In this document: piece after piece, positions 22,517-27,950 of the stretch
How positions within the stretch are numbered: position 1 is the stretch's first letter
Layout of the letters: each line of letters opens with the position of its first letter
NCBI GenBank assembly: GCA_021646405.1
Contig: SOER01000030.1
Span: 1-40,567, forward strand
Length of the DNA: 40,567 nucleotides
Reading direction: 5' to 3'
Source: Candidatus Loosdrechtia aerotolerans
GTDB taxonomy: Bacteria > Planctomycetota > Brocadiia > Brocadiales > Brocadiaceae
The notes under the pieces: model-generated
The model's input: the letters and a program-made list of their open reading frames with translations, nothing else
What the model was told of the DNA's origin: nothing
Databases searched by the model: none
Made by a program: the position numbers and the translations under genes

Positions 22517-23636
22517 TTAAATTTTTTGTATGTGTTTAGCTAATGGAAGTTTAATGGTAAATGATGTACCATTTTCCACACGACTAGTGACTTGAATGGT
22601 ACCACCATGTTCCTGGATGATCTTACGGCAAATTGAAAGTCCCAAACCCGTTCCCTTCCCTGACTCTTTTGTCGTAAAGAATGGATTAAAGATCTCTGTA
22701 ATATTTTCCTCCGGGATACCACACCCTGTATCTGTCAGCTCTATCTGTGCAGCACTATTTGTTTTTTCTGTTTTGATAGAGAGCATTTTCCTGTTGATTC
22801 CACATCTTCTTATGCTCTGTTATATCTTTCGTAATATGAATAGTACTTCTATACTTTCCGGCATCATTATAACAGGGAAATGTTGTAATATTAAAAACAC
22901 CACCCATATGCGGGTCTTCAATCTCCTCAGAACATTTCGTCATTGTTTCTAATGATTTACGATGCGGACACGTCTTCCAGGGCTCATCTGTTCCGTGAAA
23001 GATTTTATAGCACTTCTTACCGATAATCTCTTTGATATCCTTGTTGAATTTTTTAGCAACTGCCATGTTTGCCCGTATAATATTGAAATCCGCATCATGT
23101 ATACTAATCAGATCATCAATAGTATCAAGGGCCCCCTCCCATTCTGATTTTGATTGTTCAATTACTTTAAACGAGTTTATTTGAGATGCATTTTCAATAG
23201 TTACTGCAATATAACTTGCGAGCATGGTTAAAAGAAGATGTTCATATTTATTGTGTTCAAAGAGGGCAAATTTCTCCGGCAGCGTACTAAATACAGCGGA
23301 TAGACCAATAAGTTTCCGGTTCTGAATAAGAGGTGTATTCATAAAAGAGGCATATCGCACATCCAGGGCCGGACGGGAAAGAATATCTTTCAATCGGGTT
23401 GATAATGGCAAGCTTATATCCTTGATTTGAGAAAGAGGTATTCCTAAAGAACTGACAGGTATAAGATTTCCATCATTACTTAACATAATTACCGATGCAT
23501 CTGCGCCCGTAAATACCCTGAAATGCTTGGTTGCTGTCCGCAGGACCGATTTATAATCCAGGTTCTTGGAAGATAAAAGAAATGCATCTGAAAGGAATTT
23601 GAGGCGTTGATAGAGTTTCTTTTCAGGTGATGTCAT
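22517..23636 (-). pseudogene. GAF-PAS sensor histidine kinase with internal deletion and frameshift
   Basis: Two frames make up one broken kinase. The first (23636 to 22755) has a GAF-type domain (residues about 10-150), a PAS domain (about 160-275, with ITKDITEHKKM) and then ends abruptly. The second (22786 to 22517) starts in the middle of a HATPase_c domain: LSIKTEKTNSAAQIELTDTG, GIPEENITEIFNPFFTTKES, GTGLGLSICRKII. The phospho-acceptor HisKA domain and the HATPase N box, about 150 residues, are missing between them, and the reading frame changes near 22780. So this protein cannot autophosphorylate as a normal kinase. No response regulator is adjacent. A deletion is more likely than a sequencing slip because real coding sequence is missing. 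Confidence 0.85.
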
Positions 23637-23704: not shown

Positions 23705-23733
23705 TTGACAATAAATATTTTGGTATGTAAACT
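23705..23733 (+). promoter_or_regulatory. candidate sigma-70 type promoter for the DAHP synthase operon
   Basis: A perfect -35 box TTGACA (23705-23710), 17 bases, then TAAACT (4 of 6 matches to TATAAT). It lies about 85 bases before the leader peptide and 300 bases before the DAHP synthase gene. AT-rich surroundings make the -10 weak evidence. Confidence 0.4.
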
Positions 23734-23823
23734 TTACCATTCAAAAAATAAAAAGTAAATAGTGTCCTGTAGAATTCGTTTTGATAATGGAAAAGCTCTC
23801 CTTCCTTTTCGTTATACCCTGCG

Positions 23824-23919
23824 ATGAGTATACATAAAGATACCTTTAGCACAATAGTATCATACGTTAATTTTTATTATTTTCGATACTATTATCGAAA
23901 AGGGCGATTTAAGGTTTAG
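23824..23919 (+). CDS. candidate Tyr/Phe-rich attenuator leader peptide
   Basis: A 31-codon frame, ATG at 23824 to TAG at 23917-23919. Its core reads SYVNFYYFRYYYRKGRF: six Tyr and three Phe codons within 17 residues. It lies just upstream of a strong intrinsic terminator (23947-23978) and of a DAHP synthase gene, the first enzyme of aromatic amino acid synthesis. Ribosome stalling at the Tyr/Phe codons would cover a hairpin (23880-23901), leaving 23902-23920 free to pair with 23945-23954 and block the terminator. The stop codon lies inside this antiterminator arm, as in classical attenuators. Against it: no Shine-Dalgarno before the ATG, and AT-rich hairpin DNA tends to spell Tyr and Phe. 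A second short frame (23787-23837) overlaps it. Confidence 0.5.
   Translation: MSIHKDTFSTIVSYVNFYYFRYYYRKGRFKV
23880..23901 (+). promoter_or_regulatory. leader hairpin overlapping the Tyr codons
   Basis: TTTTCGATA, loop CTAT, TATCGAAAA: a perfect 9-bp stem within the leader peptide frame. It would act as the pause or protector structure of the proposed attenuator. Confidence 0.55.
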
Positions 23920-23946
23920 GAGAAAGACTTTAAGATTAATACAACG

Positions 23947-23978
23947 CCCTAAAACTCTTGGTTTTAGGGTTTTTTTTT
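23947..23978 (+). terminator. intrinsic terminator in the leader of DAHP synthase
   Basis: CCCTAAAAC, loop TCTTG, GTTTTAGGG, then nine T residues: a strong intrinsic terminator, only 28 bases before the DAHP synthase start codon. The upstream arm can alternatively pair with GGGCG at 23902-23906 (to CGCCC, 23945-23949) or TTTAGG at 23915-23920 (to CCTAAA, 23948-23953). Since the pseudogene upstream reads the other way, its only sensible role is premature termination of the rightward transcript. Confidence 0.85.
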
Positions 23979-24006
23979 GCCCACAAATTTGGTGGAGGTG
24001 TAACGG

Positions 24007-25023
24007 ATGATTATTGTAATGAAGGCCGAATCTGCAAAAAAAGACATTGATCATGTTCTTGAAAACATAGAAAAGATCGGTCTAAAGGGTGTTCTCTTGC
24101 AGGGAACGAATCGAAATATAATTGCAGTTATTGGAGACGAGCGGATAGTACCGAAGGATTTTTGGGATGTTATGCCAGGTGTAGAAAAGTCTGTTCCCAT
24201 TCTTGCACCATATAAGCTAGCGAGTAAAGAGGGGAGAGATTTTAAAACAGTTATTCATCTTAACAATGGCAAAACAATCGGAGGGGAACATATTGCTGTT
24301 ATTGCAGGGCCGTGTGCTATAGAAAGCAAAGAACAGATTATCGAGATTGCTAAAAGAGTCAAAGATGCGGGCGCAACTGTATTACGGGGAGGGGCTTTTA
24401 AACCTCGAACAAACCCATACAGTTTCCAGGGGCTTATGGAAGAAGGGCTCGTACTTTTGGCCCATGCCCGCGAAGCAACAGGCCTTCCTATTGTTACGGA
24501 AGTGCTCACTCCTGAACATGTAAAATTAGTGAGTAAGTACAGCGATATATTACAAGTCGGAACCCGTAACATGCAAAATTTCTTACTCCTGCGTGCTGTG
24601 GGTGAGTCCGGGAAACCTGTGATCATAAAGCGGGGAATGTCCGCTACTGTTGAAGAATTCCTTTTGGCGGCAGAATATGTTCTCGCCCAAAATAATCCAA
24701 ATGTAATCCTCTGCGAAAGGGGTATCAGAACATTTGAGACCCATACTCGTTTTACCCTGTCATTAAGTATTGTCCCGCAACTTAGGGAAATGACGCATCT
24801 GCCTGTTATTGTAGATCCCAGTCATGGAACAGGAAAGAGGAGCCTTATTAATCCGATGTCAAAAGGTTCTATAGCTGTAGGGGCTGATGGTCTCCTTATT
24901 GAGACCCATCCTGATCCGGAAAAATCATTCGTGGATGGTCCTCAGACAATCAACCTTGAATCATTTGATGAACTCATGCAGGAATTAAAGCCAGTGGCAG
25001 AGGCCGTTGGAAGAAAAATATAA
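24007..25023 (+). CDS. aroF: 3-deoxy-7-phosphoheptulonate (DAHP) synthase, type I-beta with regulatory N-domain
   Basis: 338 residues. It condenses phosphoenolpyruvate and erythrose 4-phosphate, the first step of the shikimate pathway. Residues 1-65 form a ferredoxin-like domain (MIIVMKAESAKKDIDHVLEN) of the kind that gives Tyr/Phe feedback control in the Thermotoga maritima enzyme. The catalytic barrel shows AGPCAIES, RGGAFKPRTNPYSFQG, IIKRGMSATVEEFLLAAEY, CERGIRTFE and DPSHGTGKR, all complete. The ATG at 24007 is preceded by GGTGGAGGTG. It is first in a rightward gene series including an aminotransferase, trpS and argS, and is preceded by a leader that looks like a transcription attenuator. 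Confidence 0.95.
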   Translation: MIIVMKAESAKKDIDHVLENIEKIGLKGVLLQGTNRNIIAVIGDERIVPKDFWDVMPGVEKSVPILAPYKLASKEGRDFKTVIHLNNGKTIGGEHIAVIAGPCAIESKEQIIEIAKRVKDAGATVLRGGAFKPRTNPYSFQGLMEEGLVLLAHAREATGLPIVTEVLTPEHVKLVSKYSDILQVGTRNMQNFLLLRAVGESGKPVIIKRGMSATVEEFLLAAEYVLAQNNPNVILCERGIRTFETHTRFTLSLSIVPQLREMTHLPVIVDPSHGTGKRSLINPMSKGSIAVGADGLLIETHPDPEKSFVDGPQTINLESFDELMQELKPVAEAVGRKI

Positions 25024-25027
25024 TCTT

Positions 25028-25537
25028 GTGAGAAGAAAAGACAAAAAGATAACAGATAAAAATGAGATTGAATATATCCTTTCAACTGCTACAGTAGGGA
25101 GGTTGGGAACATGCGCTCATGGAATTCCGTATATTACGCCAATGAATTTCGTGTACGATAAAGAGACTTCAAAGGTCTACCTCCACTGTGCACATGAGGG
25201 GAAAAAGCTGGATAATATCAGGGTTAATCCGAATGTTTGCTTCGAAGTGGAAGATGTTAAACATATTATAGTAAAGCAGCCTACCTGCGGTTCTTCGGTT
25301 GCATATAAATCTGTTATTATGTTTGGTAGTATAAGAATGCTTACTGACAGTGCTACGAAGAATGCCGCCCTCCGGAAACTTGCCGACAAATATGCACCAC
25401 AAAATCCCGAGGTTCCTTTCACTGATGTAATGCTAAACAGGACGAATGTCCTTGAAATAGAAATTGTGGAAATAACCGGGAAAAGAAGCCCCGCAAAACC
25501 TGTGATGCCGGTAAATACAGATCCATCAAAAAAGTAG
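25028..25537 (+). CDS. pyridoxamine 5'-phosphate oxidase family (flavin-binding) protein
   Basis: 169 residues from the GTG at 25028. It has the split-barrel flavin-binding pattern of small PNPOx-like proteins: RRKDKKITDKNEIEYILSTA, VGRLGTCAHGIPYITPMNFVYD, VYLHCAHEGKKLDNIRVNPNVCFEVE, and YKSVIMFGSIRML. Such proteins bind FMN, FAD or F420 and often reduce small substrates or detoxify; this one has no predicted specific reaction. A TTG at 25007 would add seven residues overlapping aroF, but relatives typically begin at the R-R-K-D position, so I use GTG, 4 bases after the aroF stop. Likely co-transcribed with aroF. Confidence 0.85.
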   Translation: MRRKDKKITDKNEIEYILSTATVGRLGTCAHGIPYITPMNFVYDKETSKVYLHCAHEGKKLDNIRVNPNVCFEVEDVKHIIVKQPTCGSSVAYKSVIMFGSIRMLTDSATKNAALRKLADKYAPQNPEVPFTDVMLNRTNVLEIEIVEITGKRSPAKPVMPVNTDPSKK

Positions 25538-25639
25538 CATTACGAGTTGCTGCAGAGATAACAGAGGATAGGAAAAGGGTAAAAAGGAATGGCAGGGAGC
25601 ATACTTTTAACGTCGAAATCAAGAAAGGAAGATGGAATT

Positions 25640-26827
25640 ATGGAAATTACGGCATCAAAGCGATTGCAATCTATTGGTTCGTATGCCTTTGCAGAAGTTG
25701 ATAAAGAAGTTGAGAAATTAAAATCAATGGGTATTATACCAATTGACTTTGGAGTGGGTGATCCAACGGTACCAACGCCTGAGGTTGTCCGTAAGGCAAC
25801 ACAAAAAGGGATAACACTTCGCAAATCATCAGGTTATCCCAGTTATATTGGTGCGCCTGAATTCCGACAGGCGGTTGCCCGGTGGATCCAGAAGAGGTTT
25901 GGTGTGTCTATGGATCCGAATACAGAGATCTCATCGACTATCGGCTCAAAGGAGGGTGTATTTAACTTTCATGAAGGAATTGTTGATCCGGGTGATTATG
26001 TAATTATTCCTACTCCCGGGTATCCACCATATACCCGTGGTACTCTGTTCGCCGAGGGAATTCCTTATTATGTACCACTTCTTGCGGAAAATAAGTTTCT
26101 TATAGACCTGAAATCTATTCCTGAAGAGGTCTGCAAAAAGGCAAAGGTTTTATGGATCAACTATCCAAATAGTCCGAGCGGAGCTGTAGCTCCTTTATCG
26201 TATCTGGAGGAGGTTGTGGAGTTTGGTAAAAAGCATAACATTATCATTGCCTCGGATGAGGCCTACAGCGAAATTTATTTTAACGAACTCCCTCACAGTA
26301 TTTTAGAGGTTGCGAAAGAAGGAATTATTGTTTTTAATTCCCTGTCGAAAAGAAGTGCTATGACGTGTTACCGCATTGGTTGGATAGCGGGTGATAAACG
26401 TATTGTCGATATATTTAAAAAGGTAAAAACAAATATTGATTCGGGTACACCCACCTTCATCCAGGACGGGGCGGTTGCGGCCCTTCACGATGAGGCCCAT
26501 GTTGACAAAATGAGGGCGGAGTACAGGATTAAGAGGGATTTATTGGTAAAGGCATTTAACGATATCAGTCTCACCAACTGTACACCGGAGGCAACTATTT
26601 ATCTATGGCAAAAAGTACCACACGGTATGACTTCTGTCGATTTTGCCAAAAAACTCCTCTCACCTGACATTGCTATCGTAGCAACACCAGGTGTATGGAT
26701 TAGTGATAAAACGGAAAAAGGACTCAACCCCGGCGAAGGATATGTGCGCTTTGCTCTGGTACCGGGTATGAAAAATACCAGGGAAGCAGCACGACGAATA
26801 AAAAATCTATTGCCAAAGCTTTTATAA
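25640..26827 (+). CDS. class I/II aminotransferase, LL-diaminopimelate aminotransferase (DapL)-like
   Basis: 395 residues from the ATG at 25640. The fold-type I PLP enzyme features are clear: substrate region DFGVGDPTVPTP, SSGYPSYIGAPEFRQAVA, GSKEGVFNFHEG, PTPGYPPYTRGTLFAEG, NYPNSPSGAVA, ASDEAYSEI and the PLP lysine in FNSLSKRSAMTCYRIGW. This combination is closest to DapL and its aspartate-aminotransferase-like relatives, so a role in lysine/peptidoglycan diaminopimelate synthesis is likely; aromatic or aspartate transamination would also suit the neighbouring aroF. The GTG/ATG further upstream at 25589 would add 17 residues with no homology; GGAAGATGG lies before 25640. Confidence 0.85.
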   Translation: MEITASKRLQSIGSYAFAEVDKEVEKLKSMGIIPIDFGVGDPTVPTPEVVRKATQKGITLRKSSGYPSYIGAPEFRQAVARWIQKRFGVSMDPNTEISSTIGSKEGVFNFHEGIVDPGDYVIIPTPGYPPYTRGTLFAEGIPYYVPLLAENKFLIDLKSIPEEVCKKAKVLWINYPNSPSGAVAPLSYLEEVVEFGKKHNIIIASDEAYSEIYFNELPHSILEVAKEGIIVFNSLSKRSAMTCYRIGWIAGDKRIVDIFKKVKTNIDSGTPTFIQDGAVAALHDEAHVDKMRAEYRIKRDLLVKAFNDISLTNCTPEATIYLWQKVPHGMTSVDFAKKLLSPDIAIVATPGVWISDKTEKGLNPGEGYVRFALVPGMKNTREAARRIKNLLPKLL

Positions 26828-26972
26828 AGAATATCTACAGACTTCACAGATTATACAAATGTGATTGGCAAAAACCGGAAGAGATGGAGCACAGAGATTT
26901 TTCATTTCCGTCTGCTTTCTGTCGTTTGTTTTCTCTGTGAGTTCTGCGGTTGAAAAGCAAGGATGTTATGGT

Positions 26973-27950
26973 ATGAAAAAACGATTATTTAGTGGAATAC
27001 AGCCCAGTGGAGATGTACATATCGGTAATTATCTGGGAGCTATCAGGAACTGGGTGCGACTTATCGATCAGTTCGAGTGCATCTTTTGCATTGTAGATTA
27101 TCATGCAATTACCATCGAATATGATCCCAAAGACATGAAGAAGAGAATCCTGAATGCAGCGGCAGTTAATATTGCATCAGGTCTAGACCCCGGTCGGTGT
27201 ATCCTCTTTGTCCAATCACACGTACCGGAACATACTGAACTTGCATGGATATTAAATACTGTAACCCCTATGGGGCATCTGGAACGCATGACTCAATATA
27301 AGGATAAATCAAGGCAACATGCTGAAAATATTAATGCAGGACTGTTTAACTATCCTGTTTTGCAGGCAGCTGATATTCTGCTCTATAAGAGTGATGCAGT
27401 ACCAGTAGGTGAAGATCAGGTTCAGCATATTGAACTTGCACGGGAGATTGCGAGAAAATTCAATATGCGGTATGGAGAGATATTTCCGGAACCAAAGGAA
27501 ATCCTGTCAGAGGCACCACGAATTATGGGGCTTGACGGTAAAACGAAAATGAGTAAAAGTCTCGGAAACTACATATCACTTATAGAATCTCCTGAATCGA
27601 TAAGAAAGAAACTATCGGCGGCTGTGACCGATGAGAATAGAAAGAGGCGTACCGACACCGGCAATCCTGATATCTGCAACCTGTTTACCCTGCATAAGTA
27701 TTTTTCTACGAAAGAACAGATTGAATATGTTCAGGGTGCATGCCGTACTGCAGAAATTGGTTGTGTTGAATGTAAAAGGGTCTTATCAGATAATGTAGCT
27801 GAGGCACTCACCCCTGTTCGTCTGAGATATGAGGAACTTGTTAAAGACCCGGATTTCCTGCTCGGCATTTTATCTGAAGGTGCAGCAAGATGCAAGAGAA
27901 TGGCAGAAGATACTATGGGTGATGCGAGAAAAAGGATGGGATTACTATAA
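26973..27950 (+). CDS. trpS: tryptophanyl-tRNA synthetase
   Basis: 325 residues from the ATG at 26973, the usual length of bacterial TrpS. Class I synthetase signatures are present: HIGH variant in GIQPSGDVHIGNYLGAI, the tRNA/ATP region GEDQVQHIELAREIA, and KMSKS in KTKMSKSLGNYI. It charges tRNA-Trp in the cytoplasm. A longer frame starting at 26865 adds 36 residues of hydrophobic, repeat-derived sequence (its DNA resembles the common CTCTGTGAGTTCTGCGGTTGAAA repeat) and is not real. It lies in the rightward series after the DapL-like aminotransferase. I saw no T-box in the 145 bases before it. Confidence 0.95.
   Translation: MKKRLFSGIQPSGDVHIGNYLGAIRNWVRLIDQFECIFCIVDYHAITIEYDPKDMKKRILNAAAVNIASGLDPGRCILFVQSHVPEHTELAWILNTVTPMGHLERMTQYKDKSRQHAENINAGLFNYPVLQAADILLYKSDAVPVGEDQVQHIELAREIARKFNMRYGEIFPEPKEILSEAPRIMGLDGKTKMSKSLGNYISLIESPESIRKKLSAAVTDENRKRRTDTGNPDICNLFTLHKYFSTKEQIEYVQGACRTAEIGCVECKRVLSDNVAEALTPVRLRYEELVKDPDFLLGILSEGAARCKRMAEDTMGDARKRMGLL

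Follow-up and report, generated by a model that had tools for sequence, protein, structure and literature searches.

Attenuation of a DAHP synthase gene by a leader peptide has been described in Corynebacterium glutamicum, where the aroR-aroF attenuator carries a leader with Phe-Tyr-Phe before aroF and answers Phe limitation (Neshat et al. 2014, as presented in PMC11802643 and PMC4046766). A second motif upstream of aroF, uORFC-13-1, is recorded from Acholeplasma and unassigned environmental sequences only, with 24 representatives (PMC8632094). Leader peptides can be made without a ribosome binding site, as cited for the ilvBNC attenuator of C. glutamicum (Morbach et al. 2000, in PMC4046766). 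In a 2010 survey, leader-peptide systems were known only in Proteobacteria, Actinobacteria and, from a single case (hisS), Firmicutes (PMC2965389). Here we examined the region upstream of aroF in the window, that is, the whole 40,567-nucleotide stretch of anammox DNA that was analysed. A ribosome-mediated (leader-peptide) transcription attenuator very probably sets read-through into aroF, and probably also into the downstream genes, according to how much aromatic aminoacyl-tRNA is available. The logic of such a leader is that of the trp and pheA attenuators. The features of the locus are as follows.

23705-23733, plus strand: promoter of the leader transcript, sigma-70-like (TTGACA, 17 nt, TAAACT)
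23824-23919, plus strand: leader peptide frame; homologous frame intact in 27 of 29 Brocadiaceae
23863-23895, plus strand: control codons, Tyr14 and then Phe-Tyr-Tyr-Phe-Arg-Tyr-Tyr-Tyr (residues 17-24)
23880-23901, plus strand: 9-bp hairpin over the control codons, TTTTCGATA CTAT TATCGAAAA; local to this genome
23901-23917, plus strand: antiterminator 5' side, AGGGCG (23901-23906) and inner strand (23908-23917), extending into the leader stop codon
23925-23950, plus strand: antiterminator 3' side, inner strand (23925-23934) and CGCCCT (23945-23950), overlapping the first arm of the terminator
23947-23978, plus strand: intrinsic terminator with a 9-bp stem, 5-nt loop and nine T; in all 29 Brocadiaceae
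23994-23998, plus strand: aroF Shine-Dalgarno sequence GGAGG, read from the sequence
24007-25023, plus strand: aroF, 3-deoxy-7-phosphoheptulonate (DAHP) synthase with N-terminal ferredoxin-like domain (PF18152 and PF00793, PRK08673)
25007-25537, plus strand: pyridoxamine-phosphate-oxidase-like flavoprotein (PF12900), overlapping the end of aroF
25589-26827, plus strand: class I/II aminotransferase, LL-diaminopimelate aminotransferase-like (PF00155)
26865-27950, plus strand: trpS, tryptophanyl-tRNA synthetase (TIGR00233); true start probably inside

Read directly, the leader frame encodes MSIHKDTFSTIVSYVNFYYFRYYYRKGRFKV and a stop codon, with 31 codons that include 6 Tyr and 4 Phe overall and 6 Tyr and 3 Phe from Y14 onward. 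Its best nine-codon stretch contains seven Tyr/Phe codons, a score reached in 0 of 300 dinucleotide shuffles in which the sequence ahead of the terminator was randomized and the terminator itself kept. The preliminary description of this DNA had reported the 31-codon frame and its core of six Tyr and three Phe codons, and both hold. It had also named the missing Shine-Dalgarno sequence as a weak point; there is indeed none ahead of the leader ATG (23824) at this locus, nor in most Brocadiaceae.

The intergenic region spans 370 nt between aroF (24007) and the divergent gene on the minus strand (22755-23636). Because that neighbour lies on the other strand and the terminator sits behind aroF's own promoter, a premature terminator is the only option. 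Its arms are CCCTAAAAC (23947-23955) and GTTTTAGGG (23961-23969), separated by a loop (23956-23960) and followed by nine T (23970-23978). Two terminator-like sites were found where 0.4 were expected, and the leader RNA fold had a z score of -2.87, with 0 of 200 shuffles as stable. When the RNA was folded before the second terminator arm exists, the antiterminator reached -13.7 kcal/mol, compared with -13.2 for the terminator alone. At this locus alone, the duplex between antiterminator and terminator arm scored -12.0, against -7.6 in shuffles (P 0.04). The two pairings are mutually exclusive in the fold calculations. The leader stop codon (23917-23919) is 11 nt downstream of AGGGCG, the first antiterminator strand, where the first strand of the inner helix ends; both here and in the family consensus CTTAGGG, it falls in the antiterminator arm or within about 12 nt of it. 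A ribosome finishing at this stop codon would thus mask the arm. These results agree with the preliminary description, which had placed a strong intrinsic terminator at 23947-23978, an antiterminator arm at 23902-23920, close to the strands computed here, and the stop codon within that arm.

In the mechanism that we propose, RNA polymerase would start near 23740 and a ribosome would translate the leader. If Tyr-tRNA (or Phe-tRNA) were short, the ribosome would stall at the first codons of the Phe/Tyr run, leaving the stretch from 23901 free to pair with the first terminator arm, so that no terminator would form and aroF would be transcribed. If the tRNAs were charged, the ribosome would reach the stop codon and cover that stretch, the terminator would form and transcription would end near 23978. 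The response would depend on charged tRNA rather than on the free amino acid. Assuming that a ribosome shields about 12 nt downstream of its A site, the stall would have to fall on the first codons of the run (Phe17 to Tyr19) to free the antiterminator arm, which lies near the final Tyr. The arrangement is that expected of an attenuator: the promoter is upstream of the frame and both are 5' of the gene, the frame is enriched in codons for the end products of the aromatic pathway, and the terminator is accompanied by an antiterminator that excludes it just behind the control codons, with the stop codon placed accordingly.

The same parts could in principle belong to an RNA switch that works independently of translation (a riboswitch, a T-box or a protein-bound attenuator), with the frame as a by-product of an AT-rich hairpin, given that low G+C favors TAT and TTT codons and that a local 9-bp hairpin overlaps the codons. 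No T-box (RF00230) or other Rfam leader was found at the aroF locus, and across the entire window only a tRNA matched at gathering score. This is consistent with the earlier statement that the element is not a T-box and argues against an RNA-only switch. The hairpin over the codons is present at 23880-23901, as the preliminary description had it; its place in a conserved switch did not stand, as relatives do not keep it. A role for it as a pause or protector hairpin was set aside for the same lack of conservation.

The gene behind the attenuator is a DAHP synthase with an N-terminal ferredoxin-like domain, as the earlier description held and as PF18152 and PF00793 confirm; solved structures close to AroF are 4grs and 1rzm/3pg9. 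In this genome, no second DAHP synthase and no type II enzyme was found, and the sole other match was 27% identical. The flavoprotein gene (25007-25537) is probably cotranscribed with aroF, and a like motif stands right behind aroF in 25 of the 27 relatives whose contigs reach that far. Because they are close and on the same strand, the flavoprotein, aminotransferase and trpS genes may share the control of aroF. On the minus strand, the frame at 22755-23636 encodes a sensor that includes a PAS domain; behind it, and overlapping it, a second frame (22517-22786) resembles a histidine-kinase ATPase domain, and the two together (22517-23636) are possibly a frameshifted sensor kinase.

Next, we compared the locus across the family. 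In 30 of 33 Brocadiaceae (anammox) genomes, aroF was complete or partial, and the upstream region was available in 29. Every one of the 29 retains the terminator; 27 have an uninterrupted leader frame, and 27 have CTTGACA where the -35 box belongs, together with a comparable -10 region. Most leaders end like FYYFRYY.KRGGS before the stop codon. Tyr and Phe together make up 31% of the 603 residues in family leaders, with Tyr enriched 3.3-fold and Phe 1.4-fold. Tyr is therefore the dominant signal in the anammox family, and Phe is less enriched. Across 23 aligned leader cores, TAY TTY is invariant, and differences per site at codon positions 1, 2 and 3 are 0.145, 0.188 and 0.33, so that the third position varies most; the leader Arg is retained through CGA/AGA/AGG changes. 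An RNA-only switch does not predict this pattern, in which the frame and its aromatic codons persist without the hairpin. Leaders of genus g7 have only 10 to 13 codons, with a good Shine-Dalgarno sequence, GGGAG, before the ATG (MYFKYFSIQIRCS, MYFYYNIRCS and MYFKYCYYQIRRS); they are individually nonsignificant by shuffling (P 0.02 to 0.13) and were counted through homology of place. In G001 (L009), only some 8 nt separate the leader ATG from the -10 box, which puts it near the expected transcription start, so that this leader mRNA may be nearly leaderless.

Some antiterminator forms in all 29 family intermediates, that is, in RNA folded up to the first terminator arm. In the family consensus, TTAGGGTTCGATATTA pairs with TAATATATTGCCCTAA and the leader stop codon TAG is inside the first strand; here the register is shifted to AGGGCG/CGCCCT plus a new 10-bp inner helix. 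Among 24 relatives, pairing held in 100% of cells for the terminator and in 94.5% for the antiterminator, compared with 23 to 70% and 32 to 58%, respectively, for slid partners. No double-sided compensatory changes were seen in the arms of these relatives; where a base differs, the change is on one side only, and conservation of the arms is by identity. Covariation within the Brocadiaceae is thus neutral with respect to the switch. Thus, of the two outcomes that the preliminary description had expected from aligning the region upstream of aroF in relatives, the retention of frame and Tyr/Phe codons was found (27 of 29), whereas compensatory stem changes were absent from the family and appear only over larger distances. 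Hairpins kept without the frame, or relatives lacking the terminator, which it had named as evidence against its reading, were not the pattern observed: frame, Tyr/Phe codons, terminator and antiterminator occur together in 27 of 29. The family RNA model gave no second good match elsewhere in this genome, and the same scan of pheA in 30 Brocadiaceae genomes found no upstream terminator. The layout is specific to aroF as against pheA.

The two exceptions are G010, in which the leader ATG is lost and the frame shifted, and G022, from the same genus as the window and its closest relative among the genomes compared, in which a stop codon replaces Tyr and the conserved promoter is absent. The broken leader and missing promoter of G022, together with a stop codon and antiterminator register that deviate here from the family consensus, would fit a plain 5' terminator or a relic, an element decaying in this genus with its regulation lost. 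We regard this as very unlikely, given that all parts are intact at this locus and that the antiterminator has been re-formed in the shifted register with a new inner helix.

Outside the family, the RNA model of the element matched little because its sequence is not conserved over distance: there was a weak match at aroF of a Scalindua relative, and two more weak matches lay elsewhere, in G115 and G345. Within the same order, G034 of family f3 has a 44-codon leader, MKLKKQKASTGTLILVVELLAFYTSSCFLSYYYPFNYFPGGGRS, which ends in SYYYPFNYFPGGGRS before its stop codon and has its own antiterminator (-21.3) and terminator. G060 of family f4 has a weaker leader candidate, MKGTYLLNSNFDFLRFSYWQEKEVVRAF, and in Scalindua rubra (G061) the leader frame is split. 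No leader was found before aroF in families f2 and f5 or in genus g14 of f4. These leaders also bear on whether the peptide itself could be the sensor. TnaC senses tryptophan by nascent-chain arrest, and a leader peptide with aromatic residues packed near its C terminus might likewise sense free tyrosine or phenylalanine rather than codon starvation, with the stall working through the same RNA parts. Known arrest peptides require fixed residues, and outside the aromatic run this peptide is not conserved (MYFYYNIRCS, MKHYAVFYYFRYYKRGGS, MKLKK...SYYYPFNYFPGGGRS). In addition, arrest would make abundant amino acid increase the expression of a biosynthetic gene instead of reducing it, except with inverted wiring. 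Given these points, we hold arrest to be highly improbable and codon-dependent stalling to be the better account.

We then examined the upstream regions of genes for this type of DAHP synthase more widely, at 40 further Planctomycetota genes, 70 Desulfobacterota genes and 76 mixed-phyla loci. Leader counts were restricted to regions with a terminator no more than 200 nt upstream, and significance was set at a shuffle P of 0.01 or less. A significant Phe/Tyr/Trp leader was found in 16/17 such regions in Planctomycetota and 29/34 in Desulfobacterota. Because choosing the best Tyr/Phe frame biases these counts, we also used simply the longest ATG frame at that position and set its amino acid content against that of shuffles. 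The top enriched residues were Trp (3.0-fold), Tyr (2.9-fold) and Phe (2.8-fold) in Planctomycetota and Tyr (4.2-fold), Trp (2.4-fold) and Phe (2.1-fold) in Desulfobacterota. For the arms, RNA beginning 33 nt upstream of the stop codon and running as far as the terminator was paired with the first terminator arm; it beat shuffles (P of 0.05 or less) in 11/13 Planctomycetota and 19/23 Desulfobacterota. Example leaders are MAMTKNFYFFYFSYSAGGS, MGIIMLRTYFWFYFYFRHALPVAT and MNGSTYWFAYFYFFGGHTAA. Antiterminators re-formed in this way, with sequence unlike that of anammox bacteria, provide the compensatory evidence that is absent within the family. A translation-independent switch is extremely improbable, as leaders rich in aromatic codons turn up again in Desulfobacterota and other planctomycetes although the RNA sequences are unrelated. 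The earlier proposal that translation of the leader controls aroF by attenuation is supported by this recurrence in distant phyla and by the parts being kept together in the family.

Across the loci from Desulfobacterota and other Planctomycetota (L210-L239, L240-L279 and L280-L319), aromatic leaders with terminators are widespread, with Trp codons inside the Tyr/Phe run. Trp-rich leaders precede DAHP synthase homologues at L314 (weaker at L308) and L098, as in MRIYSVSHSFWWWFSWSSMERRAVLMF, whose Trp cluster was matched by 0 of 300 shuffles. Such leaders suggest isozyme-specific control, by analogy with the E. coli DAHP synthase trio. Two Poribacteria loci (L102 and L104) carry Tyr/Phe leaders, which are clear only in L104 (P 0.01). 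Among them is MPFLYFRYYSDGQQRVTETT, where GTGATGGGCA and the terminator arm TGCCCATCAT form a perfect duplex; the second locus has CAATGATGGGCT / AGCCCATCATTG. Among the mixed-phyla loci, the detector gave no hit at most aroF genes from Bacillota, Chloroflexota, Nitrospirota and Actinomycetota, and therefore the layout does not occur everywhere. Mapped on a 116-protein tree, the leader required 9 gains or losses, compared with 28 with shuffled labels, and at least 8 were forced by well-supported branches. The leader is thus passed on within clades, with several gains or losses between them, and offers a clear example of a single regulatory idea being acquired or given up repeatedly.

Several observations stand against attenuation, namely, family leaders mostly without a Shine-Dalgarno sequence, the lack of double compensatory change, the broken leaders of G022 and G010 and the leaderless f2, f5 and g14. 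We lean slightly toward a broader reading in which one widespread, unnamed kind of attenuator guards the DAHP synthase with the ferredoxin-like domain in at least three phyla (Planctomycetota, Desulfobacterota and Poribacteria). It would read all three aromatics through mixed Tyr/Phe/Trp runs, with some paralogues Trp-rich, and would imply tight coupling of transcription and translation in anammox bacteria. Leader-peptide attenuators work only if ribosomes follow RNA polymerase closely. Because ribosomes must trail the polymerase in this way, the attenuator bears on transcription-translation coupling in planctomycetes, with their complex internal membranes. The predicted control also acts at the sole step found for entry into aromatic amino acid synthesis in anammox bacteria, which are hard to manipulate.

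Compared by description only, the aroR-aroF attenuator of Corynebacterium glutamicum likewise places a leader peptide before a DAHP synthase gene, with ribosome stalling raising transcription, and differs in belonging to Actinobacteria and in that Phe limitation alone acts there. Its aroF enzyme is presumably of another DAHP-synthase type. The uORFC-13-1 motif of Acholeplasma, also set beside this leader by description only, shares a short frame with Phe codons, a promoter and a terminator upstream of aroF, and attenuation was proposed for it; it differs in that "at least one" Phe codon is described (PMC8632094). The E. coli pheL-pheA and pheST attenuators, as outlined in PMC11802643, use the same leader, antiterminator and terminator logic with aromatic control codons, whereas they serve other genes, respond to Phe only and have another sequence; no Rfam leader family matches here. 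The ilvBNC attenuator is a precedent for a working leader without a Shine-Dalgarno sequence, although it concerns branched-chain amino acids. We found no published description of such a system in planctomycetes, nor of one at aroF in Desulfobacterota, in the open-access literature, subscription papers being mostly outside the reach of the search, and the distribution of aroF leader attenuators is unusually wide and apparently unrecorded. That one enzyme type is preceded by such leaders in planctomycetes, in Desulfobacterota and in Poribacteria widens the range given for leader-peptide systems in 2010 (PMC2965389).
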